Source: a virus. Taken from it: a DNA stretch of 64,000 bases. Positions 9,108 to 54,800 of this stretch are shown one piece after another. Where the stretch lies: positions 1-64,000 of IMG/VR virus record IMGVR_UViG_3300032286_000272, one strand, 5' to 3'. The first letter of the stretch is position 1. Each line of letters opens with the position of its first letter. The notes under the pieces are model-generated. The model was not told the DNA's origin, searched no databases, and worked only from the letters and a program-made list of their open reading frames with translations. The position numbers and the translations under genes are program-made.

Positions 9108-9112
9108 ATCGA

Positions 9113-9120
9113 TATTTATC
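9113..9120 (-). promoter_or_regulatory. Late promoter core GATAAATA abutting ATG 9107
   Basis: On the minus strand GATAAATA is followed by TCGAT and then ATG. There is no Shine-Dalgarno. The predicted transcription start (about 5-7 nt after the core) falls on the start codon, implying a leaderless mRNA. Confidence 0.6.
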
Positions 9121-23700: not shown

Positions 23701-25199
23701 TCAATAGGAACTAATTGTAGTTTAGATTCAATAGCAAGTGTAATACGGTTAAAAATATTAACAAAGTTTACCTGATAAATTTTATTTCTTACATCTGCAT
23801 CTCTATCAGCATTAAAAATTACTCGTTGACCTTGTTCAAGTAACCTGCCGTCGACATAATATCCATAAGAATTTTCAACAGTGCTGAATACATCGGTTAT
23901 TACATTATCAAAAAGATCAACATTACTATATCCTATCGATCCAAAATTATATAATTTTAAATCTGGTTTAAATTCAATAATAGGACGCTGTGCTCTTTTA
24001 GACGCAGGATAAGCAGGAGTTTGTCCCGTTAATTCTGCGCTTACTTTAATAATATCTTTATGGAACCAACGATTATAACGTGTCCAAGGATTTAAGTCCT
24101 GACTTGCTTTGTTAATAGTTACATATTCTGGTATGATAGGAAGTATTTTAAAATTATCAAACGGATATAAATCAAACGGTTCTGCATCAAAATTATCATT
24201 ATACTCGGGGCTTAATTTTTCAGAAACTGTTAATAGACTAGCGTCAACAAGTCTAATTGCCGAACCTACCCCTTCTACAAAAAATTCTTTATTTCTATAA
24301 GTTTCTGGATAGACTTCTCCGCTAAACTGAATTCTCATTCCATTAGAAAGTTTGACTCCATTCCCAGACATATAGGAAACTTTGCCTATTACTTCTGCTT
24401 CTACGTCAATTGTAGAATTTTCAGTTGCACTCTTGACATTAATTTCTCCCACAAAATAAGGATTATCATCTGTAGTATAATAAAGAACTGAAGGAGTATT
24501 GTCATCAATAACAATAGTAACTGTTCCAGAAGAAATGCCGTTATTAATGACACCACCTATATACTGATCGCCTGTACCCAGGCTTGGAAAATTCTTTATA
24601 TAGAATTTATGATTAGAATTTATTACAAAAGAAACTTCACTAGTCCTGTAAAGAGTAATGAGTGGATCTTCAGTTAATCCGTCCGGAGTAAAGATCCAAC
24701 CTGTATCTGTTTCATTATCATTAACGGCATAGGTACTGTTAGATGCTGCCAATGTGCCGGTAATAGTAATAAGATTAGGTCCGGTAACTAACCAGTAGTA
24801 ATCTTGATAGTTAACAAATTTATCCCAGTCAATAAACGGATCAAAACTGTAGTGTTCTGTTCTAAACAGTCTATCTAGATTGTTGTTAATTCCGCCTTCT
24901 ACATTTATTTGATTAAGCAGATCGTCTATAGCAATAACGTCTTTTACCTCACCTGCTTCATTTTTTACCACTAAAGAGGGATTAAGTTGATAATCTCTTC
25001 GTAATTCAAGAACTTCGGGAATGTAATTATCAGTAGTGCTTACATACGTTGGTGTTAATTTAGATCCAATGAATCCGTCTAATCTTTCAATTTGGGGTGG
25101 TTCCATTAATTGATCAATAGTACTTGCTAAGAATTTAGAATTCTTGTCTGTTCTCAAGTACTCAGGTAATAAATCAACTGATTTTATTTTTTTTGCCAT
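11763..25199 (-). CDS. Giant baseplate-region structural protein (4478 residues) with an FG-GAP beta-propeller
   Basis: An uninterrupted 13.4-kb reading frame starting at ATG 25199, with GGAAG as ribosome site, 2 nt after gp6. The N-terminus (LLPEYLRTDKNSKFLASTID; PFIDWDKFVNYQDYYWL at 121-137) looks like a conserved wedge-binding domain. Residues ~2090-2545 hold seven FG-GAP-like units, for example LLAGAPGFYNSEGTGSVFVY and LLIGEPGTENTGTGRVW. GFGY/GSGY beta modules lie near 2940 and 3300-3360. The remainder is Thr/Ser/Asn-rich beta structure. Its place after gp6 is where T4 has gp7/gp8/gp10, so it probably forms the outer baseplate or adhesin. No enzyme motif was recognised. Confidence 0.8.
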   Translation of the reverse strand: MAKKIKSVDLLPEYLRTDKNSKFLASTIDQLMEPPQIERLDGFIGSKLTPTYVSTTDNYIPEVLELRRDYQLNPSLVVKNEAGEVKDVIAIDDLLNQINVEGGINNNLDRLFRTEHYSFDPFIDWDKFVNYQDYYWLVTGPNLITITGTLAASNSTYAVNDNETDTGWIFTPDGLTEDPLITLYRTSEVSFVINSNHKFYIKNFPSLGTGDQYIGGVINNGISSGTVTIVIDDNTPSVLYYTTDDNPYFVGEINVKSATENSTIDVEAEVIGKVSYMSGNGVKLSNGMRIQFSGEVYPETYRNKEFFVEGVGSAIRLVDASLLTVSEKLSPEYNDNFDAEPFDLYPFDNFKILPIIPEYVTINKASQDLNPWTRYNRWFHKDIIKVSAELTGQTPAYPASKRAQRPIIEFKPDLKLYNFGSIGYSNVDLFDNVITDVFSTVENSYGYYVDGRLLEQGQRVIFNADRDADVRNKIYQVNFVNIFNRITLAIESKLQLVPIEDLIVEGVSITVNHGTEYQGSSWWYNGSSWKYAQQHTKLNQAPLFDLFDSIGSSYSNTTLYDSSFKGNKIFGYDTGSIYDAVLDFGIKYKSNAATGVGSWLFKNYFSSDTFNVIENSVVSPVLSSNTFIKVNDPYESYFGNVWKPAKEYQIPILQFGSVSEETTLFEINAIENPVGATFDLEVYVNNARLTNTQFDVITENYKSYVEFLDPISAGSDILLKIRTTAKDNENGWYEPPLSLTNNPLNGNINSLSFSELSDHLKSMVNQSYSLSNPAVRDAANLSSYGTRLIANVNPISFANFFIGIKEHSLLDAIEKSADQYNQFKVAFLKKITEIDIALDPSIAVDVVLKDLNKDKDVNSPWHISDMVPYGADKIRRTWTVTDSRNTVYPITTDFNLTQLSNRAVLVYLNGEQLLFGQSYEFTVDSAVQFLIPLSKGDIIVIDDYTDTTGSYVPSTPTKLGLYPKFTPAIYLDDTYLNETAVIQGHDGSITIAYDDYRDNIILELEKRIYNNIKSQYNFDILDINSVLPNAFKSTNLYNLDEVNTILQQDFIKWAGFYGIEYTNNSPFDESDPWTYNYLNGYNSTLGINVRGNWRSIYKYFYGTDKPHTAPWEMLGFSEEPNWWKDEYGTAPYTLGNVFLWNDLEEGRIRQGDRVGVHVDYARPGLSSIIPVDQFGNLLNPSVNLISNITSYNRRQPWIFGDQGAGETAWRRSSYWPFAVQRMLALTQPATYSSLLYDPSRISKNSAGQWVYGTDKVYLNLKAVEIFGYNDTLTSGYSVYISEVGKQRLTTYLDSLTTDLKNLDFNLFYKVGGFINKQKVQLLIDAVSPDSTNLGSILPQEDYQLILNISNPIKSLNISGIIVQRATDGYIIKGYDTYKPYFEIYDSIRNSTTPSITVGGVSENYVNWSPTTTGGATGLDAVDTTTAKAAFGNHFYSSGSVVRYENKFYRVKVDHLAEDTFNDALFQIIPILPVKGGATVQTSINFNKTSRKISYGTKLENIQAVYDLIIGYGKWLSDQGFIFDHYDVELGESLDWDLSAKEFLYWSTQNWADNSIITLSPFATQLKYSYPTSVVDNLFDNYYSYSILNASGLTFPQSFLNVSRFDGVCKFEVTGSQDGIYFATINSVQKEHAIIFNNNTVFNDTIYNIETGYRQLRMKLSGFRTSGWDGDYYSPGFVYDDVKIKNWDKYVDYKYADVIKFSGRYYIAAKSIQGKQYFSTDDGWVLLNEKPVSGLLPNFDYKINQFEDFYSLDIDNFDSSQQKMAQHLVGYTPRVYLNSIFTNPIAQYKFYQGYIKEKGTKNAVNKIAKASIFNRQGEIDYTEEWAFRIGNYGSYSSFQELELPLVEGSFLENPQVITFVDSVPAASNDLINYIVPSNLSIKPTDYTSNNIFATTSTNVFEFNFAGYANTNDVTYQFYNDSFLLSYENNREFVEGDVFWIGFTDNGDWNVSRYDRIHDIGITGINIVIGTSLTFTTTDRHGLSVGDYVSITQLNDTINRIYQVENIPSLEQFTVATTLTSVVSVPETPSGALFKLSTARYDIFDNLPADSEMVRYPAGTKFWIDNDQAIDDNIWSVYEKIQNYNGTAVVTPASPTNQKLGHSLSKTTSSNILLAGAPGFYNSEGTGSVFVYTRSTNGIVSRRFKFNLNENQTAYYDDKSNSEFGFKVVLSPVEFSTSTHGLIFAGAPGLNNAKGTGLPGGVRYATVSGSASGLAQEGAVKISSIDPILFTDNTELVLLSPDPTSYYRFGQSISVGNSGTSLLIGEPGTENTGTGRVWSYNVDLTSSTFITTSSAYMLDTSDVPITVGSQFGYSISSSEVGLYAIGAPGTAGTGFVAIYDGIGDTVPQVITPETVNFPNWAEEGLDYGRFGHIVLLTDAGDKLFVSSPEHRNINNSFGAVLIYSRQENGTFDNINPQILSNPIPGQGMRFGVSLDYDAATETLVIGSVGRNNSVYVTFDNDDTTFDSNSTQFLDIVENYGTAYIYQKKSSGTRYVLAEELKPKVNTLSDIVETRFGFDVLVENNTIYVGAPGTSSTSKFYYFNKVDLAKNSLTAIQTYEDPIDVHVIEKAAIYDLYDQSIVEFLEVIDPAKGKIAGIAEQELKYRSNFDPAIYSTGTVLTVNDTTSNWLDERVGDLWWDLSTVKYVLYEQSSLLYRKNNWGKLFPGSSIDIYEWVGSVYLPSEWAALADTSEGLTEGISGQPRYANDSVYSVKPVYNSATNSFTDYYYYWVKNKVTVPNAKNRRISASQVSSIILDPTSYGLRYLSVIDNNALMLSNIEGLLVSDRMHLNIGYDNTKSDIPRHTEWLLLQENSTYSLPNALLEKKLLDSLIGHDSLGNLVPDPNLPARQKCGIEIRPRQSMFKNRTEALRNVVEFANQILLANPITGNYNFKNLNTQESYPDEYSGEWDQLVEDNEGLLLVNTLRLKQAKLSCTVYNGKIRAVVIDEPGFGYKTAPAVTILGNKGHSIIKTEIDLYGRIISCNIENAGIGYPDNQPPTLEVRPYSVIVIADNLYNGKWTLFEWNTMSSQWIRSQTQKYNTTLYWNYIDWASADYNQFIDYAYTVNEVYELMALTDITPGQYVKVKDGGDGRYIILEKTTSDVYGTFDTDYNLLYKEQGTIQISDDIWNIKNSNYGFDDIDTRYDQTLYDQTPDLELQYILQALKQDIFVNELKVNWNLLFFKSVRYALTEQKILDWAFKTSFINVTNYSGLLDQTPSYKLRNDTSFEEYLKEVKPYHTQLRSYTTNYKNLEESNTYTTDFDLPTDYNRNTGLYEVTNSMLSEYPWKSWSDNYLYGVGSISIGDPGETYLYNPEILIQPAPGDYGTGATAVAYISSGKISSIEIINSGSGYKLPPVVKAIGGGASKDAILYARLSNNKVRSNLIGIKFDRTSKSSSIGNVVTSDSFICDGSANEFILTWYAEPTKSNIQITLDGDLVLSTDYRVVQYQEQFKDYNKKYSKIVLTKEIPTAGKQLDISYNKNIELFNAVDRIVNYYTATSGMPGTLEQLMAGIEYPGVTLEGLPFDYSTKWGTTFTNYTSNYDKGVWADEVSYYKKVKVSSTASIGTATVIVTSTNGLAVGLIANVISSTETSFITTTTDVSISAINTITNAVTFSTLTSRTLVPGDIIEFWNYDTNSSLLDTAFDAGDLANTYSLGINPEDIIIDGDQFISSAVSYAPDEMVPGFVTESIGINVYTRNSGALSSKIVSNYIGIQTGTTTSAKLMMLPPNKDSIYVTFDGKVFQYSTTTEFTTSTEFTVDWATENLIIPPQTTSGPVGYTIMGIGSAGPNVEIGAIDTAAAVSVGTSTAEVIGLSSIGTIKSAYVTVNGEVISETTSTSVYGYRIESAGEYNNRVAARVYNLNTATTATIQAWFFGNSFKYYNEPIEQFITTTLSTNTYNLTFPPGIIEPAAANAIVEIKTNNGNKRLIPPIISYYKVTDPAQLSYVVDKYKSDVDTNIANRTIRVYKNGAELSYGADWTKPSTEDIVNITAGIINVGDVLAILMISIDNSVPDYDIQNNQITILNTGNIPPGSQLRIVTFNNHDNLQLRVERFPGKTHRKFKLSREIIDDNYLWVEVDGIPLINKFDYLMLDDNQTIQLRKEVPMSKISKVVVTTVDNSKPTDEVLGYRIFTDIFNRTHFKRLSKENTTILAEPLYSTGTQIVVEDATVLIPPITGKNIPGVVLINKERIEFYKINGNVLSQLRRGTLGTGSSDYLPIGTKVIDQSPEQTVPYEDRIYRQTQWTTSTTDTYIISTVTSTATNGLSTVISDGITLQYQPTATSLETISAKDQVIVTYGGRVLRKDDYVYHDFTVAYDSLEYQLLGTTSTVSLLPAGINIGDAYKVADTKQIWVYSGSIEKNAINGYVYKGLNYLEPEFTVNTSTKEITLNINGGVQQNIKLEIIKREATTSTVWNDVLGWNQTRTLMDSDTKPANFLQSRPAELPTQFYYTPVVPYFPPDYVIYLENGLALTTEFSNPLQGL

Positions 25200-25201
25200 T
25201 A

Positions 25202-28200
25202 TTAACTTCCGCTAGATGTAACAATTGTTGCTGTAGTGTTTAACTGTGATGCAGTGATTGCATTGATTACCTGTATGTCGTTTACGGTTGCGCCGCTTAT
25301 AAAAATCTCGTTACTTAAACAAGCTACTTCGTATAAACTTCCAAAATTGTTTATTTTTGGAACAACGACAAAGTTTGTAATGTAAGGACTAACTTCATTC
25401 ATGACATAGGTAACTAATTCACTAAAATAGAAAGATTGTCCAAATTCCCAATTTTCTAAAGCAAAGAAATTATTAATAGTCTCTAAGATTCTTGTTTTAA
25501 TTTCATTATCACTAATAGGTATTGCGTTGTTTTTAACAGCTTTAAAAGTAGCCTGTAAATTAATATCAGCTTTTGAGCCAAACAATATTTTATATTTTAC
25601 CGGCTGAAACACAATCTCGTCGCTTATTGTCTTGATGTTTTCAAGACCACTGGCATAGTTTTGTTCTAGACTTTGGCTCGTAGGAGTTAATGGTTCAGTT
25701 CCTATGCCAGTACTTAGCCATGTTCTAAAATCTAAATCATATCTGTTTGTTAACAAATATAGATCCATAATATTACTCTTACTAGGGTCAACTCGGCGTG
25801 TTTCTCCGCTGTTATGAATGTATTGGAATTTTACATTATTTCTGCCAAGGTATGCAGAATATTCTGGTTGATATGTCCATAGTGTCGACGTAGAATATTT
25901 CTTTACCACATTTTCAGAAGGATTAGAAAAATAATATAATTGATCGTTAATTGGAGAAGAGACAGAAGCCTGTGTAGAGGTTGTTATAATATCATCATTA
26001 GACAGCTGGGTTCGCAACCCGTTGGTCATTGTTTTAAAGAAAATATAGTTTGTGCCTGTTCCTACTATGTTTTCAAAAGTGTCAGGATCTTCAATTTGTC
26101 CTGCATTATTATAATCGTAAAAACTTACTTTGACTTTTTTAGGTTCTACATAACCGTCAGGTTCAATAATTGACGAATCAACTTGCCATAGATAATCTTT
26201 TCCTAAACTAACAACTGGAGAAACATTGCTTGCTGTATTAATAGATAATACTGTAATTTTATCTTTAATTACTGTATTAGTAGTGTAATCATAGTTGACA
26301 TTGTTGCTATCAATGTAAAACGCAGTCTGTTGCTCGCTTTCAAAGATATAATCAGTAATTCTATACCTGACTCGATATCCTTTACCGTTCCAATTAAAAC
26401 AAACTAGCCAGCTGGAATCTTGTTGAGTATTGGTTTTGTCGCCTTGCTTAAAAAGATCAAATGAGCCAAAAGAATTTAAGTTTGTGTCGAGTATAATTGA
26501 CCATTCTCTTGTTGTATTGTTAATAGTTAAACCAAAGTTACGCTGAGTCCGGCATAGATTTACTATTTCGTTTTCAAAAGCATACGAATATGCACTCTTA
26601 TATTTGGGGATAACTTCAATGGGTTGAGCAGTAGAAGCAATAAGTGTACTCAATACTATAGGACCTGTGCCGTCTGATAATGTGCCTTGGCCGCTGTTAG
26701 ATCCGTCGCTAACAACTTTTGTAACTGTAGCCCAAGTTATAGTATTGTCTTGATTCAAAAATTTAATCATCGAACCTACAGAAACATATTTTAAATTATT
26801 AGTTGTAAAAGATCCTACACTCTGTGGTGTTGACGGAGACGAGTCTGGCTGTGTCTCAAAATAACCAGAACACTGTCCAGACATCTTAGTAATCTGTTTC
26901 CATTGTAAATTTAAATCAACTAATGTAAATCTTTCAAAATTATCTAAGTAGAAAGATCTCATTGCTGTAGAACTAATAATAGGACCCAGGCGTTCATTAA
27001 CAACAGAATACACCTCATTACTGTTCGTAAATTCAAAATCAAAATATTCTTCGTAAGAATTTTTGTAGAGCATTCCGTCAGTCGCAAATATATTTGTTTG
27101 GCCGTATTTGCTGCTTACATCACTTAGGTCAAAATACTTGCTAAGACCACTAGTAACGCGGTTAATACTTTTTATTTTTAAAATATCATTGCTAAGAGAC
27201 AAAGGAGCAATATTATAATCTTCAGCAGTGACCATTCTGTTTTGCGTATAATAAACTTGAGGAGCCTTGCTTCGAATACTTGCATTACTTTCTGTGGCAG
27301 AACTATTAGAAACTGTATATTGTAAACTAAGAGTTAAAGAAAGCGTATGGCTCTGACCAATTTTATTAACATAAGGTATTTGAACAATAATGCCGTTCAT
27401 TTGTTCTGGTTTAATACTATATTCAGATCCGTTACTTTGACGATATAATAGTCTAAATTCTCCCTTAGGAAGATTACCAAATGCGCCGTCTGCAAAGTTT
27501 AAATCAATTTGATCGCTGTCTCTGCTGGTAACACTGTAGATGTTTCTTTCATTTTTACTTAGACTATTATAGATAATATTATTACCAGTAATAGCAGACA
27601 CTTTATTCCAAAGAGTTGAATAGTTAGCATTGCCGTCTAATTGCCATAACCAAACATCTGTATCGTTGATATTGCCTGTATTAACACCGATTATCTCATT
27701 AGGTACAGGATTAGTAACAGAAAAACTAGCCAGCCCTAAAGTTCCTTGACGAAAGTGAGTAAAGAAACCTGTGTTAGAACTTCCATATCCTTGATTGTCA
27801 TTTTTCCAAATTAAACTAAATGCATTTCCGGGGGAAGGAGGTTCTTCATATACAGTGCTAGATCCAGAAAATGTGCAGCTGGTTACTTCAAAATTCATGT
27901 TGGCGCCGTTGATATTTTTTAAAAAACTAAAAACAGGAACATCAGTATTAGAGCTGCTAATTCGATATTGTTCTGTAAAAATTCCATCAACTGTTCCACG
28001 ATCGTACGGCTTACCAAATACAAAACTTCCAGGCATTGCCGAGTTAATAACTGTGATAAATTGCTGGTACCAATCTGCATTGGTAGAATCATTCCAAGAT
28101 ATTGTGGTGTTGGCTAGGTTAATTCTATTTGCATCAACAACAGAATCTGTTGTAGAAATTCCAACTAATTTTAAAAATCCATTTGACGGTACGTTACGTT

Positions 28201-28522
28201 TAGGAACATAACTGATAAGCTGGGCCAAACGCAACACACTGTCTCTACGTTCAGCAGTTTCTAAGAAGTTTTCTCTTGCATTAAGATCAACTCGAAAACT
28301 TAAATTTTGTCCTAGGTAAGCAATAAGGTCGATAAGTGCAACATATTCACTACTGTCGATAAAATCGTTAAAATCTTCGGGATAGTTTTCACGAAGATAT
28401 TGAATCATCGTGCGGCGGAGTGTTTCAAAGTCGTAACTTTGGAAGTCTGCATTGCGGAAGCTCTGATATATCTTCTTCCAATCTTCTGCAACAAGTAGTT
28501 TAGTGTTTGTCGATGGGATCAT
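25202..28522 (-). CDS. gp6: Baseplate wedge protein gp6
   Basis: A 1106-residue protein, much longer than T4 gp6 (660). The N-terminus carries the gp6 signature: LRENYPEDFNDFIDSSEYVA, LIDLIAYLGQNLSFRVDLNA and ENFLETAERRDSVLRLAQLI. The C-terminal part (NEIKTRILETINNFFALENW, GQSFYFSELVTYVMNEVSPY) resembles the baseplate J-like domain. It forms the wedge ring around the hub. It sits between gp25 and the giant protein, all co-directional. ATG 28522 lacks a clear Shine-Dalgarno, and a late-promoter core lies 19 nt upstream. Confidence 0.92.
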   Translation of the reverse strand: MIPSTNTKLLVAEDWKKIYQSFRNADFQSYDFETLRRTMIQYLRENYPEDFNDFIDSSEYVALIDLIAYLGQNLSFRVDLNARENFLETAERRDSVLRLAQLISYVPKRNVPSNGFLKLVGISTTDSVVDANRINLANTTISWNDSTNADWYQQFITVINSAMPGSFVFGKPYDRGTVDGIFTEQYRISSSNTDVPVFSFLKNINGANMNFEVTSCTFSGSSTVYEEPPSPGNAFSLIWKNDNQGYGSSNTGFFTHFRQGTLGLASFSVTNPVPNEIIGVNTGNINDTDVWLWQLDGNANYSTLWNKVSAITGNNIIYNSLSKNERNIYSVTSRDSDQIDLNFADGAFGNLPKGEFRLLYRQSNGSEYSIKPEQMNGIIVQIPYVNKIGQSHTLSLTLSLQYTVSNSSATESNASIRSKAPQVYYTQNRMVTAEDYNIAPLSLSNDILKIKSINRVTSGLSKYFDLSDVSSKYGQTNIFATDGMLYKNSYEEYFDFEFTNSNEVYSVVNERLGPIISSTAMRSFYLDNFERFTLVDLNLQWKQITKMSGQCSGYFETQPDSSPSTPQSVGSFTTNNLKYVSVGSMIKFLNQDNTITWATVTKVVSDGSNSGQGTLSDGTGPIVLSTLIASTAQPIEVIPKYKSAYSYAFENEIVNLCRTQRNFGLTINNTTREWSIILDTNLNSFGSFDLFKQGDKTNTQQDSSWLVCFNWNGKGYRVRYRITDYIFESEQQTAFYIDSNNVNYDYTTNTVIKDKITVLSINTASNVSPVVSLGKDYLWQVDSSIIEPDGYVEPKKVKVSFYDYNNAGQIEDPDTFENIVGTGTNYIFFKTMTNGLRTQLSNDDIITTSTQASVSSPINDQLYYFSNPSENVVKKYSTSTLWTYQPEYSAYLGRNNVKFQYIHNSGETRRVDPSKSNIMDLYLLTNRYDLDFRTWLSTGIGTEPLTPTSQSLEQNYASGLENIKTISDEIVFQPVKYKILFGSKADINLQATFKAVKNNAIPISDNEIKTRILETINNFFALENWEFGQSFYFSELVTYVMNEVSPYITNFVVVPKINNFGSLYEVACLSNEIFISGATVNDIQVINAITASQLNTTATIVTSSGS

Positions 28523-28569: not shown

Positions 28570-29010
28570 TTATTGTTGCACAACAAGGCCTATTGATTGA
28601 TCAAACTGCAAACGCATATTTGAGGTTTGATCTGTATTTTTTAACAAAAGTGTTAATTCTAAAAAATATCCAGTTTCGTATTCTGTGAGATCCATTTGTA
28701 TAGGTGTTACTCTAGGATCACTTGTACAAATAACTTGAATATCGTCCATAAATTGTTGTCGGGTAATTGGAGTAGCCGGTTCCATTATAAGGTCCCATAT
28801 TGCACTACCAAAAGTAGGATTCATTACTCGTTCACCTCTACGAGTTCGAAAACTGTTTATAATATCTTGTTTTACTAAATCAAAATCAAATAGTTTGGTA
28901 GCCGAGGTAGTATCATCAACAGAGCTAAATCCTTTGTAATACTGGGACTGTTTTACCAGTGCAGTGTTTACAGCACCCGTATCATTAATTTCAATGTTTT
29001 TGTATGGCAT
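28570..29010 (-). CDS. gp25: Baseplate wedge protein gp25
   Basis: A 146-residue protein, near T4 gp25 in size. It shows the gp25/lysozyme-like family hallmark RTRRGERVMNPTFGSAIWDL followed by LIMEPATPITRQQFMDDI, and a beta-rich C-terminus ending in MRLQFDQSIGLVVQQ. It joins the baseplate wedge near the sheath. A perfect TATAAATA core lies 4 nt before ATG 29010 and no Shine-Dalgarno is present. Confidence 0.93.
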   Translation of the reverse strand: MPYKNIEINDTGAVNTALVKQSQYYKGFSSVDDTTSATKLFDFDLVKQDIINSFRTRRGERVMNPTFGSAIWDLIMEPATPITRQQFMDDIQVICTSDPRVTPIQMDLTEYETGYFLELTLLLKNTDQTSNMRLQFDQSIGLVVQQ

Positions 29011-29014
29011 GGTA

Positions 29015-29022
29015 TATTTATA
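29015..29022 (-). promoter_or_regulatory. Late promoter core TATAAATA abutting gp25 ATG
   Basis: An exact T4 late consensus on the minus strand, followed by TACC and the ATG at 29010. The predicted transcript start coincides with the start codon. Confidence 0.65.
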
Positions 29023-32891: not shown

Positions 32892-33658
32892 TATAATAAT
32901 CCTGTTTTTCTAAGTTGATCGCCGGCAATCCACTCAGTTACTGAATAACTTTGCATCTCTGTTCTACTATACATAGGTGTGCAGGTTATAGAAATTGTGC
33001 TTATTGTAGGGACAGCCGTTGTTCCGAATTTCTTAACATCTTTTCCTGTACTAAAATAATCAACACCTTCCGGTAGCTCAACTCGTAAACTGCTAATAGA
33101 CACAGGTACATTGTCTAACATAAATGAGCCATAGGCAAATAATCTACATACGGGCGGCGGGCTTCCCGCGCCTTGGTCAAATCCAGTACGCATTTTAGTC
33201 AACGAACGAAGAAGGTGTACTGTAGACAAATAAACTGCGGCATCTTTTTCATTTTGAACAGTAAATTTTCCTTGAATACTGATTGGAGTAATAGAACTTC
33301 TTTGATAAAAATAAATTGCTTGATTGCTGTGCATTGGACTTAATGAACTATAATCGGCTTTTTGCTCATAGCTTATCGCTGGAGTATAAGGAAAAACAAT
33401 TCCCGCATTCATTAATAATTCAAAATTGTTACCGCCTGTTGTAAATGTCTGTAGATAACTTGTCGGAACTTTAATCCTCACTCTAGTATCATCTGGTGGA
33501 GTTGTTCCAGCAGCAGTGGTATAATTTACAGTACCGGGTTGCGGCGGAGTCGGCAAACCTCCAGTTGGCGGTCGTCCAGATAAGATTCTTCCAGCAGCAA
33601 TAGCAGAAGGTGCCAATACACTGCCTATAAGAAGAGATGAGATTATTGTGTTAGCCAT
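32891..33658 (-). CDS. Baseplate-tail tube junction protein (gp48/gp54-like)
   Basis: A 255-residue protein. The N-terminus has a hydrophobic stretch (IISSLLIGSVLAPSAIAAG) and a Pro-rich linker (PPTGGLPTPPQPG). The core has IVFPYTPAISYEQKADYS, SITPISIQGKFTVQNEKDAA and VYLSTVHLLRSLTKM. It ends with SLRVELPEGVDYFSTGK and SITCTPMYSRTEM. This resembles the tube-initiator proteins of T4-like aquatic phages, but I cannot separate gp48 from gp54. It is the first gene of the minus-strand operon, with Shine-Dalgarno AAAGGAAC and a late promoter upstream. Confidence 0.6.
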   Translation of the reverse strand: MANTIISSLLIGSVLAPSAIAAGRILSGRPPTGGLPTPPQPGTVNYTTAAGTTPPDDTRVRIKVPTSYLQTFTTGGNNFELLMNAGIVFPYTPAISYEQKADYSSLSPMHSNQAIYFYQRSSITPISIQGKFTVQNEKDAAVYLSTVHLLRSLTKMRTGFDQGAGSPPPVCRLFAYGSFMLDNVPVSISSLRVELPEGVDYFSTGKDVKKFGTTAVPTISTISITCTPMYSRTEMQSYSVTEWIAGDQLRKTGLL

Positions 33659-33676
33659 TCTTGTTCCTTTATAGCG

Positions 33677-33683
33677 TATTTAC
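33677..33683 (-). promoter_or_regulatory. Late promoter core GTAAATAC for the tail operon
   Basis: Minus strand GGTAAATACGC. The core ends 18 nt before ATG 33658, with a Shine-Dalgarno between. It heads the ~29-kb minus-strand operon. Confidence 0.6.
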
Positions 33684-33768: not shown

Positions 33769-34704
33769 ATGACAGATATCATACCAGTAATAAAGAAAGT
33801 TAAATACTTAAACAACAGAGATTTATTAGCAGAGATACATAGAAGCAAGTGCTCTTTCTCAAGTTTTACCAAATCAGAATACAGTCAGCACGATATTATT
33901 CTAACTAATTTGGATAAAATTAACATTCGAACTGTAGCAGACGCAAAACGTGCTAGAGCTAAAAGAATGGGCATACAGGCCTTTGCAGAAGCTAGATTGT
34001 CCGGGGATAAAAAGATAAAGTTATCCGAAGTTACTCCAGATTACAAAACCATAGCCAAAACCGATGTGGTTATTAGAATTATGACTTTTGATCATATTCC
34101 ACTGGCGCCAGGTCGCAAGAAGACAACCAAAACTGTTGCAGATGCACATGACAAGGTTAACTTTCCACCCTTCCAACATTGGAAGTTTGATGATAATGAC
34201 GAGCTAATATGTGTGGGTAAAAGTCATTGGACTGGCGGAATTAAAACTGGTAAATTCAGTAAGGATCACGGACGTATTACAGAAAACTTAGGTCGCATGT
34301 ATATCAAACTAGCCGATAGATATGCTCAAAGAAGCAACTGGAGGGGCTATACCTACATTGAAGAAATGAAGGGGCAGGCCATTCTACAACTAAGTCAAAT
34401 TGGTCTACAGTTCGACGAATCTAAGTCAGAAAATCCATTCGCCTACTATACCGCAGCAGTTACCAATAGCTTTACTAGAATCCTAAACCTAGAAAAGAAA
34501 AGTCAAAATATTCGAGACGATCTGTTAGAAGAAGCTGGTTTAACACCTAGTTTGACAAGACAAAACAGCCAAGAATATGCAGAAGAAATTGCTCGACAGG
34601 CCGAACTGTATAAGAACATGCGGATGCCAAAAGCCGAAGCTGCTGATTATGTAGATGAGACAGACGGCGAAACAGAGAGCGAAGACGAGGATACTAAGGC
34701 TTGA
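33769..34704 (+). CDS. gp55: Late transcription sigma factor gp55
   Basis: A 311-residue protein. The N-terminus VKYLNNRDLLAEI matches the T4 gp55 start (YVNNKELLQAI). Residues ~168-265 (GRITENLGRMYIKLADRYAQ; YTYIEEMKGQAILQLSQIGL; ENPFAYYTAAVTNSFTRIL) are the sigma-like core that binds polymerase and recognises the late -10 element. T4 gp55 is 185 residues; here about 135 extra residues (~30-165, including FDHIPLAPGRKKTTKTVAD and NFPPFQHWKFDD) sit between the two parts. The C-terminal tail is acidic. Transcribed from a strong sigma70-like promoter. The many TATAAATA-type sites in this window are its expected targets. Confidence 0.92.
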   Translation: MTDIIPVIKKVKYLNNRDLLAEIHRSKCSFSSFTKSEYSQHDIILTNLDKINIRTVADAKRARAKRMGIQAFAEARLSGDKKIKLSEVTPDYKTIAKTDVVIRIMTFDHIPLAPGRKKTTKTVADAHDKVNFPPFQHWKFDDNDELICVGKSHWTGGIKTGKFSKDHGRITENLGRMYIKLADRYAQRSNWRGYTYIEEMKGQAILQLSQIGLQFDESKSENPFAYYTAAVTNSFTRILNLEKKSQNIRDDLLEEAGLTPSLTRQNSQEYAEEIARQAELYKNMRMPKAEAADYVDETDGETESEDEDTKA

Positions 34705-39758: not shown

Positions 39759-39973
39759 ATCAACGGCATACCAGTAGTTTTACTGTTTTCAATATTTTCT
39801 AAAATTATCTTTGAGATAATTTCTCTATCTTCTTGATCGAGCATGTAGGCCTGCTCTATGCTCAGGCTTCCCCTCATAAACCAAGCCATTTTAAACAATT
39901 CATGTTTTAAGGCTTTTGACTCTCTTTCTAGTTTCTTAACCTCTTGGTCAATCTCATCTAGAGTCAGTGTCAA
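39755..39973 (-). CDS. Small helical protein beside gp26 (possible baseplate assembly factor)
   Basis: A 72-residue protein starting at TTG 39973; no ATG is available upstream of the domain, and TTGA overlaps the gp26 stop. It is a coiled-coil-like helix (TLDEIDQEVKKLERESKALK) followed by FMRGSLSIEQAYMLDQEDRE and IISKIILENIENSKTTG. In T4, gene 51 (a baseplate hub assembly factor) lies next to gene 26, so a gp51-like role is possible by position only. Its stop overlaps the stop of the converging 38982 gene. Confidence 0.65.
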   Translation of the reverse strand: MTLTLDEIDQEVKKLERESKALKHELFKMAWFMRGSLSIEQAYMLDQEDREIISKIILENIENSKTTGMPLI

Positions 39974-40848
39974 AAGCCTCGAGCGAAAAAATCTGAATTG
40001 TTAAAGTTGATAGGAATAGTATAGGTTGCGGGAGCACCGCGAGCTTGTTGATCTTCAGTAGTGGTAAATTCTAAAGATTTAAGATTGTTTTGTTCTTTTA
40101 ACTTGCCTAGATGCTTGTTAATCTTTTCAAAAATATCTTTGTCAACATTGTTAATAAACTCTTTAATGAACACAGGTTCAGTAACATCTTCGCCATTGGC
40201 CACAATCTTATAGACACTATCTGCGGTTAACTCAACAGTTACTTTGGTTAACATGTTAAAACTTTGATTGAACAGTTTTAATTTTTCTTCATCGGAGATC
40301 TTTTCGTCATTGACCATGGCTAATATTCTATTGGTCTCAAATGTCTTGATACTGGTCTGTGTTAAATGCTTGTATGACAATGGCTTGACAAACAACACAA
40401 GATCTGGACTAACAGCAATTTGATTGATCCATGTATTTTGACTCTGTTGATCTAAGATCACACGCAGATCTAATTCAAAATCAACTTCTTCATTAATTAC
40501 TGGAATATTATGAGTGAACGGCATTTTTTCGCCGTAGGTTGCTAGTCTAATGGCAACAAGAATTGTATCTAAATCTACTGTAGGAACATCCCAAGCATTT
40601 TTAATGTTGGGCATACAACTTTGTATAACATCTACAATAGCCTGTCCGTTCATCAATGCATCCGGAGTCTTAAACAATAATTCGTCTTTGGCAGTCATGG
40701 AGTAAACTGGCAATTCTTCATTGTCTGGATAGTCGATACTGCTGTCTGGCCAATATCTTCCACGACTGGGCAGCTTGATATAAATTTTGGGCTGACGCAT
40801 GAACATGGTTAGTGGATTTTTTTTAGGAGAAAAGGTGTTGTTTTGCAT
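39970..40848 (-). CDS. gp26: Baseplate hub protein gp26-like
   Basis: A 292-residue protein with the T4 baseplate gp26 family N-terminus: IYIKLPSRGRYWPDSSI, EELPVYSMTAKDELLFKTPD and ALMNGQAIVDVIQSCMPNIK, then DTILVAIRLATYG. T4 gp26 is 208 residues; the extra length is C-terminal. It belongs to the hub assembly group. It is encoded on the opposite strand to the tape measure, with divergent late promoters in the 77-nt gap. Confidence 0.85.
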   Translation of the reverse strand: MQNNTFSPKKNPLTMFMRQPKIYIKLPSRGRYWPDSSIDYPDNEELPVYSMTAKDELLFKTPDALMNGQAIVDVIQSCMPNIKNAWDVPTVDLDTILVAIRLATYGEKMPFTHNIPVINEEVDFELDLRVILDQQSQNTWINQIAVSPDLVLFVKPLSYKHLTQTSIKTFETNRILAMVNDEKISDEEKLKLFNQSFNMLTKVTVELTADSVYKIVANGEDVTEPVFIKEFINNVDKDIFEKINKHLGKLKEQNNLKSLEFTTTEDQQARGAPATYTIPINFNNSDFFARGF

Positions 40849-45502: not shown

Positions 45503-45509
45503 ATAAATA
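45502..45509 (+). promoter_or_regulatory. Late promoter core AATAAATA abutting ATG 45515
   Basis: The core overlaps the gp20 stop codon and is followed by AAAAC and ATG. No Shine-Dalgarno is present, predicting a leaderless mRNA. Confidence 0.6.
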
Positions 45510-45514
45510 AAAAC

Positions 45515-45760
45515 ATGCTCTTAAAAGAATTCATTTATTTTGATGACAAACGTTCAGAACCTCAAGATGACGGCCGTTATCTAAGTCGTAATGACACAGG
45601 CGTCCTGCGTTCTTCAGACACGAGAAAAACTAGACTAACACTTCGTATGTTAAACGACGCTCGTAAAGCTAGTGAAGCTCATGAAAAAGAAAAGCAAGAA
45701 GAGCTGGGATTAGTTAGAACAATGTATGCTCAGCCTCCAGCTGAGCAGGCAGCAGTGTAA
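45515..45760 (+). CDS. Small prohead-operon protein (gp67-position)
   Basis: An 81-residue protein, charged and mostly helical: LLKEFIYFDDKRSEPQDDGR, TRKTRLTLRMLNDARKASEA, and the tail LVRTMYAQPPAEQ. T4 has the small core protein gp67 (80 residues) between gp20 and the scaffold genes, so size and position agree, but sequence similarity is not evident to me. It has its own late core promoter 5 nt upstream. Confidence 0.7.
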   Translation: MLLKEFIYFDDKRSEPQDDGRYLSRNDTGVLRSSDTRKTRLTLRMLNDARKASEAHEKEKQEELGLVRTMYAQPPAEQAAV

Positions 45761-45892: not shown

Positions 45893-45906
45893 CCTGTAAA
45901 TACAGG
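45893..45906 (+). promoter_or_regulatory. Late promoter core GTAAATAC inside a palindrome, for the capsid operon
   Basis: CCTGTA-AA-TACAGG is a perfect 14-bp inverted repeat containing GTAAATAC (45896-45903). The core is 38 nt before ATG 45942, with Shine-Dalgarno AAGGAGA at 45927-45933. It probably drives the scaffold, gp21, gp22 and gp23 genes. Confidence 0.55.
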
Positions 45907-45941
45907 TACTATATTGCCGCAACCTTAAGGAGAACCACGCG

Positions 45942-46955
45942 ATGTCAACTAAATTTGAACAATTGCTAGACCTACTTGTAAACGAAGAAATGGATAAAGC
46001 CAATGAACTATTCCATACTATTGTTGTAGAAAAGTCTAGAGAAATCTACGAAAATATGATTGCTGAAGAAGCAGATGAAGAAGAAATGGACGAAGCCAAA
46101 GCCGAAGACGATGAAGAAATGGACGAAGCTAAGGAAGAGGACGACAAAGAATTAGACGAAGCAGCCGAAGACGATGAAATGGATGAGGGTGCTGAAGAAT
46201 TAGAAGACAGCTACATGATGGACGCCGACGACGAAGAAGACGACGGTATGGGCGGCGATGCTGCTGACGACATGTTAGGCGACGTTGAAATGGACGGAGA
46301 CGCCGATGAAGAAAGCAGCGAAGACGAAGCCATTATGGATATTAAGAATGCTATCGCTGAACTAGAAGCAGCATTTGCTGATCTAGAAGCTGCCCAAGGC
46401 GGAGAAATGGATAGCGACATGGATTCGGAATTCGGCGACGAAGATGAAGACGAGACAGACGAAATGATGGGTATGGGTCTACGTGAGTACCGTGAGACAG
46501 TTGGTAACGACTGGGAAAAGAGCGGAAGCCAAAAGACACCAGGACCAGTTGGTTCAGGTAAAGGCGACCTAGCAGGCCAGACCAGTGTTGACAACGGCAA
46601 GAGCCCAGTTAGCAGTGGTAAAGGCAAGCCTACAACAGGCGCAACTGCTAAGAATATTCTAGGCGACCAAAAAGCAGGCGAAGGCACTAACGTTGGTACA
46701 AAGCCAACAGGCAAAGCTGGCGGACTAGTTGGCAGTGTCAAAGGTGAGTTTACCAAAGGTGTTGAAAAGAACATCGCAGGTAGTGCTAATGCTAAAATGA
46801 AAAGCGGTTCTGATCTAGGCAAGCAAGGTGCAGGTTACCCAGGTAACAACAAGACTGCTGGCCCAGTTGGATCTGGTAAAGGTGATAAAGCTGGTCAAAC
46901 CAGCATTCACAATGCACCAAGCCCACTTAACGGCGCACCTAATCGTAACTCTTAA
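45942..46955 (+). CDS. Prohead core / scaffold protein (gp68-like), highly acidic
   Basis: A 337-residue protein. The N-terminus STKFEQLLDLLVNEEMDKAN then ELFHTIVVEKSREIYENMI resembles the prohead core protein of aquatic T4-like phages. Residues ~45-180 are extremely acidic (Asp/Glu/Met repeats). The C-terminal half is a Gly/Lys/Ser-rich repeat region in which a PGPVGSGKGDLAGQTS-like unit recurs. It has no enzymatic motif. It is probably an internal scaffold removed by gp21; I-A-E and similar motifs occur in it. It starts the gp21-gp22-gp23 operon with a strong Shine-Dalgarno. Confidence 0.75.
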   Translation: MSTKFEQLLDLLVNEEMDKANELFHTIVVEKSREIYENMIAEEADEEEMDEAKAEDDEEMDEAKEEDDKELDEAAEDDEMDEGAEELEDSYMMDADDEEDDGMGGDAADDMLGDVEMDGDADEESSEDEAIMDIKNAIAELEAAFADLEAAQGGEMDSDMDSEFGDEDEDETDEMMGMGLREYRETVGNDWEKSGSQKTPGPVGSGKGDLAGQTSVDNGKSPVSSGKGKPTTGATAKNILGDQKAGEGTNVGTKPTGKAGGLVGSVKGEFTKGVEKNIAGSANAKMKSGSDLGKQGAGYPGNNKTAGPVGSGKGDKAGQTSIHNAPSPLNGAPNRNS

Positions 46956-49962: not shown

Positions 49963-49971
49963 AATAAATAC
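49963..49971 (+). promoter_or_regulatory. Late promoter core AATAAATAC
   Basis: Directly after the gp23 terminator, 79 nt before ATG 50051. It starts the transcript for the next structural gene. Confidence 0.65.
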
Positions 49972-49979
49972 ACTGTTCG

Positions 49980-50015
49980 CTCCGAAAGGGGAGTTTATGC
50001 GGTCCCCACCGCGTA
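49980..50015 (+). other. Possible pseudoknotted 5' leader
   Basis: GCGGT (49999-50003) and ACCGC (50008-50012) form a hairpin whose CCCC loop can pair with GGGG at 49988-49991, itself in a CTCC/GGAG hairpin. It could influence translation or stability of the 50051 mRNA. Confidence 0.4.
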
Positions 50016-50050
50016 GGCAATAGAACTGTCTATATTTTAAGGAGAAAAAA

Positions 50051-51220
50051 ATGGGACGTCCAATTAAAAAGAGTTTTTTTGCTAACTTGAGCAGCCCTTA
50101 TCAGGATCATGCTACAGGTGGCCCAACAGGTGAAGGCGGTGAAGGAGTTGCTAGTGTAACAATTACTACAACTGGATCTTACACAGCTACAATTCCTACA
50201 GTGAGTTTTGCTACTCCTGATTTATATCTAGGAACAACAGCAACTGGTGTTGTGCATGTTAAATCATTAAGTGCTAGCACAACAGCAAATGGTAATGGTT
50301 ATACACTGGGTCAAACATTAAGTGTTTCTGGTGGTACAAAGAGTACTACAGCAACTTTTACAACAACCGCAGTTGTAGTTGCAGCCATTACAAAAACAGC
50401 TAACGGATCGCTTTATGACAACGACAATGAAATTTGGTTTGACAGCGCAGGCTGGTCAGTACCTCTAAAACTTGATGTTGTTAGTAATATAGGCGGTGCA
50501 TTAGATACATTTACAGTATTGCAGTACGGTGTATGGAATGGCCCCGGCGCTGCTCCAACTACTCTGACTGCTACTACAAGTAACACTCGTGGTGGTGTTG
50601 ATCAAAACGCTACTGGCGCGGTATTCACATTGACATACGGTGTTTATTCTTTCAGCAGCCCAGTAGTAGTCGGTGATTATACAGCTATTCCTGCTAATCC
50701 AGCAAGCTTCACAGGAGCATCAGGTTCAGGAGCAACTGCTGAAATAGCATGGGGTGTACGCAGTGTTGAAGTTACTAATTCAGGTAGCCACTATGTTAGT
50801 GTAGCCGATGCAGCAGTAACATTTTCTAGCGGTACAGCAGCAGGTACATCTGTATTAACTGCTTTAAATGATCAAGGTATTGCAGCTTACGCTTATATTG
50901 TTGACGGTGTAGAAGGTTCTATTGTTGATATCATGAAACAAGAAGCTAGTCGTCGTTATCTAGTTAAAGAGCGTTCTGGCGTACAAGGTCAGTGCAAACT
51001 AGTTGCTAAAGCAGCCGGCGATTTAAACGTAGGCGAAATGTGCATCATTGCAACAGATACATTAGGTAGCACATATTATGTTACAAAATTAACAACACAC
51101 AGAGCAGTCTTATCTCGAGCTAACAACGGCGGCAGTGGATATTCTTTTGCCACAGGTGATGTAGCAGGATGGAATATTACTACTCCAGCAACAGGTGTTG
51201 TTACTATTACCACTGTCTAA
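50051..51220 (+). CDS. Virion structural protein, capsid-decoration candidate
   Basis: A 389-residue protein, Thr/Ser/Gly/Ala-rich, almost all beta. The N-terminus MGRPIKKSFFANLSSPYQDH is basic. It contains GSGY-like beta segments (ANGNGYTLGQTLSVSGG; VEVTNSGSHYVSVADAAVTF), also seen in the giant protein. The C-terminal ~110 residues (GIAAYAYIVDGVEGSIVDIM; SRRYLVKERSGVQGQCKLVA) form a distinct domain. Position after gp23, its own late promoter and a strong AAGGAG ribosome site suggest an abundant virion protein such as a decoration protein; this is inferred. Confidence 0.65.
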   Translation: MGRPIKKSFFANLSSPYQDHATGGPTGEGGEGVASVTITTTGSYTATIPTVSFATPDLYLGTTATGVVHVKSLSASTTANGNGYTLGQTLSVSGGTKSTTATFTTTAVVVAAITKTANGSLYDNDNEIWFDSAGWSVPLKLDVVSNIGGALDTFTVLQYGVWNGPGAAPTTLTATTSNTRGGVDQNATGAVFTLTYGVYSFSSPVVVGDYTAIPANPASFTGASGSGATAEIAWGVRSVEVTNSGSHYVSVADAAVTFSSGTAAGTSVLTALNDQGIAAYAYIVDGVEGSIVDIMKQEASRRYLVKERSGVQGQCKLVAKAAGDLNVGEMCIIATDTLGSTYYVTKLTTHRAVLSRANNGGSGYSFATGDVAGWNITTPATGVVTITTV

Positions 51221-51238: not shown

Positions 51239-51263
51239 AAAAAGGCTCTTTGGAGCCTTTTTT
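51239..51263 (+). terminator. Terminator after the 50051 structural gene
   Basis: AAAAAGGCTC and GAGCCTTTTTT pair around a TTTG loop, with a T-run at 51258-51263. Confidence 0.9.
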
Positions 51264-51289
51264 ATTGACTGCGTATAAAAAATATTTAG

Positions 51290-51298
51290 GTAAATACT
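51290..51298 (+). promoter_or_regulatory. Late promoter core GTAAATACT abutting ATG 51302
   Basis: GTAAATA is followed by CTGGT and then ATG. No Shine-Dalgarno; predicted leaderless transcript. Confidence 0.6.
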
Positions 51299-51301
51299 GG
51301 T

Positions 51302-51829
51302 ATGACTACTCCTTGGACCAATCCCACAACTGTAATTCAATTTGCAGAAGCTAGCGCAGAAAATGTTCATATACCGTGGGATAGTTCTAATAATTTTGCA
51401 GGAATGATGAACGACAACGAACAAGGTGTTGGATCAATGGATCCTTTATATCATCACGCTCGCAGTCCCGAAGTTGACATAAACAGTAAAACTTATTATA
51501 TAAGAGCAACTGGATATAACTTTCAAAACTTACCAAATATTATTTTGGGTATAGCAGTAAGATTAAAAACTAAACGTGGCGGGAGAGTTACAGACGATAC
51601 TGTTCAGCTTTGTTTAAGTGGAGAAGAAATTGGAGATAATCGTGCGGATTTAATAGTAAATCCGTTAAAGTATTATGGAGGAAATAGTGATTTGTGGGGA
51701 ATAGAAAGTATAAGGCTAGTCGATGTTCAAGACAGCTCTTTTGGAGTAACACTTCGATTCAAGAGTCATCCTCGATACCCACATCGTGATGCTGTATTCA
51801 TTGACAGCGTACAAATACGAATTTACTAA
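51302..51829 (+). CDS. Virion structural protein, unknown
   Basis: A 175-residue protein. Visible features are PWTNPTTVIQFAEASAENVH, then ARSPEVDINSKTYYIRATGY and a beta-rich C-terminus (LWGIESIRLVDVQDSSFGVT, SHPRYPHRDAVFIDSVQIRI). No membrane segment or signal peptide. It looks like a small head or collar/tail accessory protein; I do not recognise the family. It sits between the structural gene and the adhesin, with terminator upstream and a second late promoter directly downstream. Confidence 0.65.
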   Translation: MTTPWTNPTTVIQFAEASAENVHIPWDSSNNFAGMMNDNEQGVGSMDPLYHHARSPEVDINSKTYYIRATGYNFQNLPNIILGIAVRLKTKRGGRVTDDTVQLCLSGEEIGDNRADLIVNPLKYYGGNSDLWGIESIRLVDVQDSSFGVTLRFKSHPRYPHRDAVFIDSVQIRIY

Positions 51830-51832
51830 TCT

Positions 51833-51841
51833 AATAAATAC
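51833..51841 (+). promoter_or_regulatory. Late promoter core AATAAATAC for the plus-strand fibre cluster
   Basis: The core ends 17 nt before ATG 51858, with Shine-Dalgarno AAAGGAAT between. No further late core is seen until 62635, so it probably transcribes 51858-62580. Confidence 0.65.
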
Positions 51842-51857
51842 TCTAAAGGAATAGATA

Positions 51858-54800
51858 ATGGCCATTAGAAGAGTCACTGGAACAGTACAGTATAATCCAA
51901 CAAGCAACGAAACCGTTATTCGATCGCCTAATAGTACCGTTTCTATTGAAGCATCGAATTTTACAGTTCAGAACGCTGCCACCAGTCCTGCGTTTAATGT
52001 GGCTGCAACCGGTACAATTGGAAGCAACAGTATATATGTTGCCAGCAAGACATCTATTAGACCGGGTCTTGTAGTAACGGGTCAAGGAATTACTAGTCCT
52101 ACAACTGTTACCAGTGTAAGTTCAATTACCAACGAAGTAATTTTACTAGACGCTAACACTGCAACGTTCAGTTCTATCTTAACATTTACAGATTACGGAT
52201 CTGGTGTATACTCTGCATTTCCTAGCTCGTTAAGAGTTACAGCAGACGCAAGTAACGTAGGAAATCCTACTGGACGACCATACGATCCTAACAATATTTA
52301 CGACACACCACAAAATCGTCAATTAGGTTCTGTGTACATTGCTGGCGGTGTAGGTATTGAAAAAGACTTAAACGTAGGTGGTTTCATTTATGGACGTATT
52401 TCAGAGGCTATTACCAGTACACAATTAGTAGTTACTGCTACTAATATCGATGCAACATTCTATCCGACGTTTATTCAAAATTTCTCCAGCGGTGCAGGCA
52501 ATCAACTTTTTGGAGATAACACTGGTACCTTTAGTGGCTTAACTTATAATCCTGCTAAGGGGTTGTTAAGAGTTGAGCAGGTCAATGTTACTTCTAGCAC
52601 ACAAAGTACCAGTACAACTACTGGTGCACTGACCGTAAAGGGCGGTGTTGGCATCGAAGGCAATTTGACTGTTGATGATATCTATACCAAAGTTCTTAGC
52701 AGCTTAGGAAGCAAGATACAGATTCGTCCTGAAGAACCTCTAACAGAAATTTACGGTGACATTAGAGTACTCAATGGAACTAATCCTATCGGTACCGCTC
52801 CAGTAGTTACTAATGTATTATATGTTACAATGGATGGCGATGATACCAATGACGGCCGCGCACAAGATCCTAGTCGCGCATGTCGTACCATTAATGGAGC
52901 AACTAATAGTCCATATTATCAACCTGGTACACAGATCCGTGTGTCGCCCGGAATCTATTTAGAAGACAATCCAATTAGACTGAAGCCGTATACCAGTGTC
53001 ATGGGTAGTGATATCCGTACTACTAGTGTTGAGCCTATCAACAAAACACAAGACCTGTTTCATTTAGATAGCGGATGCTATTTGGCGTTCATGCAATTTT
53101 TAAATGGACGCAGTGGATTGTTAGAAGGCAATTATGCTCCGGGAACTAATAGAGGTGCTTATGCAACAGCATTTCCTCCATTAGAAGGCGATGCACGTAT
53201 TGACCTATTCCACTCGCCGTATGTACAAAACTGTACCAATTTAAGTGGACCTTGGCTAAAGGATGGAACAATATTTGTTCCTAACCAAACGGTACAAATT
53301 CCGTTGGCAGTTGGCACAGGAACTTGGGCTGCATACACTACCACTATCGTAGTTAATGCATCAACCGGCACTATAGAATTAGGTATGGCAATTAATGCAG
53401 GGCAACAAAATCCTGGATTCTTTAATGCACGTACTTTGATGTTGGCTAACAAACCGTTCCTTCAAGAGCAAGTGATTGCTTATATCAATCAAGAGATTTT
53501 AGCCAACGTTGCCAATACATCTAGCATCTGGTACGGGTTCACGTATGCACAGGAAGAATACTATCGAGACATTGGTATTCTTCTAGAAAACGTTGCATAC
53601 GATGCTGCATTTGGCGGCAACCAAAAGTCAAGAGAGACTGGACTATCATATTATGACGGTGTCATAAGTGCGATTGCTGGCGAAGAACAACAAACCGCAG
53701 CAGCCATAACGTATCTAAATACTCTTACTCAGCAGGTTATAACAAATACTACCTGTACTGACTTATTAGTGGGTGCAGGCGATTATGATCAAATTATTAA
53801 TTGGGTCTTAATTGATGGACAAATTTCAAGTTCTAGTATTGACAGTCTATTTGCGATCATTAAAGATATTATTATTAATGGTCCAGATGTTGCACCTGCT
53901 CCTTATACCAGTACAGGACCAGACGCTGCCTACGTTAGTGCAGAAATATTAATGCAGGCTAATCGTGCTTTTATTCAAGAAGATACGATTAACTACATTA
54001 ATCAAACAGTTAAGCAGTTTCCGTATAGTAAAGTTGAATATAAAAGAGACTTTGGTCTAACTATTGATAGTATTGCAAATGACTTGTTGCATCCTACACC
54101 AGAGTTTAGTCAAAGTAATTTTTCTGGATTACAATATTGGACTCAGACTAGTTACGCCGGAACTATTGGTCAAGAAATAACTACAGCAACTGCTGCTATT
54201 AACTATCTAAAAGAGTTAACTAGAAAAGCAATCTTGCATGTAACTGAAGCAGATGATGCTATTATTGGAGTTACACGATATCAAACAGGTACTGTACAGG
54301 TTACTACAATTCAACCAGGAACACAGGTAGAAGTAGATACTGTTTATGGGTTATTCAACAAGTTTATTTCTATAATTGGCGGCAACAAATTAGGCTGGCC
54401 AGATAAAATTATTGCTAACGGTACTGCTAGTAATTTCTTAAGTGTGCAACAGAGCTACGATCTATTACAAGCTAACAAAAATTATTTTAAAGAAGAAGTA
54501 ATTGCTTATATAGAAACAGAAAGTCCTGGCTTCGTATATTCGAGCTCTACATATAGAACAGAAATTAGTAATTTAGTTGATAGTATTAGTTTTGATCTAT
54601 TGCACGGCGGAAATCGCCAAAGCATCCAATCTGGATTAGAATATTATACATTTACATCTACTGCTTCTTTAATTCAAGGTCAAGAAGTTCAGACAGTTGC
54701 TGCATATAATCGTCTAGCTAGCTTGGTCAGTAGTGTTATTCAAAACAATCCAATTACGCCAATTCAAACCGATGTAGTTCAAAAGTTTAATTATGATTCA

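Follow-up and report, generated by a model that had tools for sequence, protein, structure and literature searches.

Late promoter boxes set against start codons point to leaderless late mRNAs in large T4-like phages

The window analysed here is a 64,000-nt stretch of a 66,961-base IMG/VR virus record, and its structural genes are T4-like according to profile matches. At four places in it a late-promoter box stands almost directly before a start codon, and at other places the box is followed by an ordinary leader and a Shine-Dalgarno sequence (SD). The genes and elements concerned are listed below by position and strand.

8436-9107, minus strand: 223-aa gene, phrog_11259, function unknown, predicted leaderless, start less certain
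9105-9119, minus strand: late-promoter box ATAAATA (9119-9113), spacer TCGAT (5 nt), ATG at 9107
28570-29010, minus strand: gp25 baseplate wedge subunit (PF04965, 3.1e-8; phrog_43, 3.5e-16), predicted leaderless
29008-29022, minus strand: late-promoter box TATAAATA (29022-29015), spacer TACC (4 nt), ATG at 29010
33656-33682, minus strand: leadered late promoter with 18 nt between box and ATG (33682 to 33658), SD AAAGGA
33769-34704, plus strand: gp55, late-transcription sigma factor and expected reader of the box (phrog_12791, 2.3e-82)
45503-45517, plus strand: late-promoter box ATAAATA (45503-45509), spacer AAAAC (5 nt), ATG at 45515
45515-45760, plus strand: 81-aa ORF immediately behind the portal gene; phrog_13986, function unknown; predicted leaderless
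45897-45944, plus strand: leadered late promoter, 39 nt (45897 to 45942), SD AAGGAG
49965 to 50051: leadered late promoter, box at 49965, 80 nt, SD AAGGAG
51239-51264, plus strand: intrinsic-terminator-like hairpin, AAAAAGGCTC TTTG GAGCCTTTTTT, folding energy -13.6 kcal/mol, z -4.4
51290-51304, plus strand: late-promoter box GTAAATA (51290-51296, core 51291-51296, read directly), spacer CTGGT (5 nt), ATG at 51302-51304, predicted leaderless start
51302-51829, plus strand: 175-aa ORF, predicted leaderless
51835-51860, plus strand: leadered late promoter with 17 nt between box and ATG (51835 to 51858), SD AAAGGA

A sequence-only reading had reported TAAATA cores 4-5 nt before the ATG of four genes, and direct inspection of the letters found all four. 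It had also described these sites as devoid of any SD, which is slightly too strong at 51302, where an AGG stands 11 nt before the ATG; this AGG lies beyond the box core, is conserved among homologs of the gene and sits upstream of the predicted transcription start. In the window, 4 of 42 TAAATA sites are located 4-5 nt before an ATG (ORF of at least 60 aa), whereas the 14 other hexamers that share its composition have 6 of 1641 sites so placed (binomial p ~2e-5). The box at 45503 coincides in part with the TAA region that ends the portal gene. For the gene at 9107 the start is less certain because another in-frame ATG follows 8 codons into the gene and the N-terminus shows little conservation.

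Profile searches gave no PHROG or Pfam match for the 175-aa gene at 51302. Its family carries a variant box, AGGTAAATA, at 51288-51296 in the window and also in homologs, and the GG of this box may replace the first two box bases or may be a weak ribosome site. Boxes of the form GGTAAATA, which resemble this variant, stand before some homologs of the gene at 45515. The structural region of the window also holds a single ORF of 4478 aa (11763-25199, minus strand); in the corresponding region of Pseudomonas phage Cassandra a giant gene is annotated as virion structural protein.

The genes at 33658, 45942, 50051 and 51858 had been described as leadered late genes with good ribosome sites, and the positions of their boxes and SDs were confirmed. 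The coexistence of both architectures is thereby borne out, and many gene families keep one of the two across genomes. The gene for gp55 is in the same place in phage GAP32.

To describe box spacing genome-wide we used the window together with six related IMG/VR jumbo-phage contigs (G001, G002, G003, G006, G010 and G013; 112-332 kb), which were scanned whole or nearly whole. The group consists of large T4-like freshwater phages, and its main-clade genomes are metagenomic contigs, some perhaps incomplete. Among the 280 ATAAATA boxes of this sample, 92 had the ATG of an ORF (50 codons or longer) 4-8 nt downstream; spacings of 4, 5, 6, 7 and 8 nt accounted for 11, 49, 10, 14 and 8 boxes, respectively. 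No box was found at 9-11 nt, nine were found at 12-16 nt, and a second, leadered mode of 84 boxes occupied 17-30 nt. Permutations of the same seven letters, with overlapping registers left out, gave about 0.5-3% at 4-7 nt, in a control that keeps composition and not higher-order structure; TATAAATA-like boxes were enriched before ORFs at the two spacings in comparison with permuted motifs. A chance origin of the close spacing was ruled out by the permuted motifs and by reversed-pattern controls. Since sites within one gene family are not independent, protein clusters and divergent pairs are reported separately, and the 92 genes of the close class fall into 44 clusters. Spacing 5 dominates the close spacings; in the family alignments spacing 6 is rarer than spacing 7 (2 versus 9 for gp25, 0 versus 6 for the 81-aa gene), and the cases at spacing 7 often read ...ACT-ATG.

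The close class (spacing 4-8) differs from the leadered late genes in what surrounds the start codon. Its start codons comprise 92 ATG, 2 GTG and no TTG, and 4% of its genes carry an SD of 4 nt or longer, versus 64% of leadered late genes. A separate gene set defined by the core TAAATA gave SD frequencies of 7% for box-adjacent genes versus 51% for genes without a late box. Moreover, at spacing 5 a pyrimidine occupies position -1 of the ATG in 48 of 49 genes, compared with 65 of 102 leadered genes (p 7e-7), which corresponds to the -1/+1 preference usual at transcription starts. The composition of the leadered promoters gave no clear signal for the +1 base.

In T4, the late box comprises 8 bp about one helical turn upstream of the transcription start, and the same review numbers its first two bases -13 and -12 (PMC2988020). 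With the box at -13 to -6, a spacing of 5 puts the A of ATG at +1, a prediction that was taken from T4 and not fitted to the present data. The sequence-only reading had transcription beginning at the A of ATG, and the observed peak at 5 is the very value that the T4 box geometry requires. Spacings of 6-8 would yield a leader of 1-3 nt, and spacing 4 would need the start to be shifted by one base.

It had further been suggested that the same loci be aligned in related phages, and in homologs taken from viral contigs by tblastn the spacing was kept in all four families. The box was part of the definition of these family alignments, so perfect conservation within them is meaningless and the fraction of homologs with a box is the result. 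The arrangement was present in 53 of 60 homologs of gp25, in 65 of 71 homologs of the gene at 8436-9107 (55 at spacing 5) and in 74 of 77 homologs of the 81-aa gene (64 at exactly 5), whose three exceptions are cultured phages of other groups, namely GAP32, Kaldavass and Cassandra. A peptide-pattern search returned no relatives of the gene at 51302, and tblastn of fetched loci found 16, all of which have the arrangement, mostly as AGGTAAATA; these homologs show 32-50% identity. Flanking DNA has diverged strongly in many homologs, which indicates that the spacing itself is being kept. Other families are leadered in every genome in which a box was found, among them 39970-40848 (7 of 7) and the baseplate wedge gene 25202-28522 (6 of 6), and a few families show both architectures. 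Whether a late gene is leaderless or leadered in type is largely a stable property of its family.

The amount of room available for a leader bears on the alternative that these genes are expressed from read-through mRNAs that begin upstream, with coupled or non-SD initiation, and that the box is incidental or serves only downstream genes. Many of the genes do closely follow a codirectional gene, and the stop codon of the gene upstream often overlaps the box or lies right next to it. However, these contigs contain 13 divergent pairs in which both genes are of the leaderless type; 28-41 bp separate their start codons, and two boxes stand back to back in that interval, an arrangement that read-through cannot serve. 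Permuted hexamers gave no such pairs unless they were the motif itself in a shifted, overlapping register. In one pair that recurs, the gene for a 252-aa neck protein (head-tail adaptor, phrog_211) is joined with that for a virion structural protein of about 400 aa, and the sequence between its two ATGs reads, for example, AGTGATGTATTTATAGGTAAATAATCGT. Back-to-back boxes between divergent starts can be seen at L269:2804-2833 (G002:182804/182833), and similar pairs occur in G001, G003, G006, G010 and G013. At 51302, moreover, the hairpin at 51239-51264 separates the upstream gene from the box at 51290, and the promoter core starts about 26 nt past it. None of 200 shuffles folded as well as this hairpin, which was found by folding and was not listed by a scan for consensus terminators. 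The divergent pairs and the terminator together make read-through mRNA hardly the main source of these proteins, and the spacing peaks at one value, which is conserved. We therefore consider read-through improbable as the explanation of the class, although it could add to the expression of codirectional genes.

A second alternative takes the box together with the ATG as a promoter motif and places the true start codon further downstream, so that a leader exists after all. The late motif of phage phiKZ is indeed TATG (PMC5312081), and 49 of the 65 homologs with the arrangement in the 8436-9107 family have a second in-frame ATG within the first 15 codons. In the gp25 family, by contrast, the ATG leads directly into a conserved MPYKNI and a second early ATG occurs in 0 of 53 cases, and in the 81-aa family an N-terminus M-x-L-R-E-F is conserved right after the ATG, with a second early ATG in 4 of 74. 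Conserved residues that directly follow the first ATG support it as the start codon in these two families. Leadered boxes lack an ATG at spacing 5, GTG and TTG are nearly absent there, and the RefSeq starts of Pelagibacter phage HTVC008M agree with the box-proximal ATG, so a downstream start is very unlikely as a general account. Least likely of all is that the sequence before the ATG is an A/U-rich initiation element of an SD-independent host and no promoter: Bacteroidota do without an SD and use base identities before the start codon (PMC6847099), but most of the other same-composition motifs are not enriched in this way, the box motif is also found 17-30 nt ahead of genes that have an SD, an SD accompanies about half or more of the remaining genes, and gp55 is encoded.

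The arrangement is not a feature of all T4-like phages, a possibility that was ruled out by the counts in T4, P-SSM2, GAP32 and Syn9. Boxes at spacing 4-8 number 0 of 65 in T4, where the nearest is at 12, 1 of 59 in P-SSM2, 1 of 59 in GAP32 and 0 of 30 in a partial Syn9 genome. The spacing-5 pattern was not clearly commoner than its reversed control in KVP40, Kaldavass, Aeh1, S-PM2, phiM12, phiW-14, slurp01, XbC2, Phosso, DLP6, RL38J1, S-CRM01 or Mel-JY01, and Atu_ph07 showed only a slight excess (5 versus 2). In Cassandra 4 of 142 boxes are in the close range, all at spacing 5, and these are perhaps a weak trace of the class. In HTVC008M (NC_020484) the close range takes in 12 of 45 boxes, and nine of these have a spacing of exactly 5. 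Eight of these nine sites fall within the RefSeq annotation that was compared, and all eight are annotated CDS starts. These eight include the genes for the tape measure, the DNA end protector and a baseplate wedge subunit about as large as gp25; the head-tail adaptor gene of this phage has spacing 8. Thus at least two separate groups of T4-like phages have the class, and one of these groups has a cultured host.

Taken together, we conclude that gp55-type late promoters very probably give leaderless late mRNAs in these phages. As we infer the mechanism, the box is read by gp55, RNA +1 falls on the A of AUG, and initiation is of the leaderless (70S) kind: the gp55 holoenzyme would open the box, RNA would start directly on the A of AUG or at most about 3 nt from it, and ribosomes would load on the 5'-terminal AUG rather than by way of an SD. 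A second set of late genes keeps leaders of roughly 12-25 nt, mostly with an SD. In E. coli, leaderless mRNAs are likely to be initiated by 70S ribosomes, with stimulation by IF2 and inhibition by IF3 (PMC4633059). Leaderless translation is weaker there than leadered translation (PMC4633059). The sequence-only reading had suggested that the architecture serves the expression of minor virion proteins. This fits only in part: several head, neck and baseplate genes belong to the class, but it also includes homing endonucleases and unknown genes. That leaderless expression times or sets the level of the minor virion proteins is plausible. Homing endonuclease genes with a leaderless-type late promoter lie at L302:12491-13267 and L292:17133-17804.

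An IF3 gene is encoded by six related jumbo phages without a clear class, GAP32, Kaldavass, XbC2, slurp01, Phosso and Atu_ph07 (loci L407 for Phosso, L408 for Atu_ph07 and L409 for GAP32), and no such gene turned up in HTVC008M, in Cassandra or in 15 records from the leaderless clade. T4, P-SSM2, S-PM2 and phiM12 have neither IF3 nor the class, so absence of IF3 is not sufficient, and the pattern may be explained by shared ancestry. A wider reading, which we regard as doubtful, would go beyond the promoter class. An entire T4-like lineage would have shifted many of its late genes, family by family, to leaderless expression, back-to-back divergent promoters included, within a late-infection change in ribosome initiation; in view of the IF3 distribution, the phage would then set its own balance between leaderless and leadered translation.

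Late transcription in T4 is textbook material, and in E. coli and similar bacteria leaderless mRNA is usually deemed a rare exception. Here, a late promoter class is apparently built for leaderless expression and has been kept over large divergence. Since the class is present in a cultured Pelagibacter phage, it is directly testable. Prediction of late promoters has been reported to fail in pelagimyophages (PMC7029224), and the leaderless arrangement might help to explain this failure. In annotation, such sites may be overlooked or wrongly called by promoter scans designed around a leader. A search of the literature on T4-like phages, with most subscription journals outside its reach, found no report of a leaderless late class.

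T4 late promoters have the sequence TATAAATA and work with gp55, gp33 and gp45. The phages described here share with T4 the box core, a gp55 homolog, boxes before structural genes and a T4-like leadered class, but none of the 65 ATAAATA sites of T4 lies 4-8 nt before an ORF ATG, compared with about a third here. The Thermus phage phiYS40 has a class of leaderless transcripts and is an unrelated phage with another promoter system and a thermophilic host. The leaderless genes of lambda, P2 and Tn1721 (via PMC4633059) likewise have AUG-first mRNA without an SD, but these are isolated cases with other promoter types, whereas here a large class would be attached to a T4-type late promoter. The leaderless transcripts of mycobacteria (PMC4633059) are alike in that many genes have their transcription start on the start codon and no SD; these, however, are cellular and use GTG as well as ATG, whereas in the present phages ATG is nearly exclusive and a phage late promoter drives expression.
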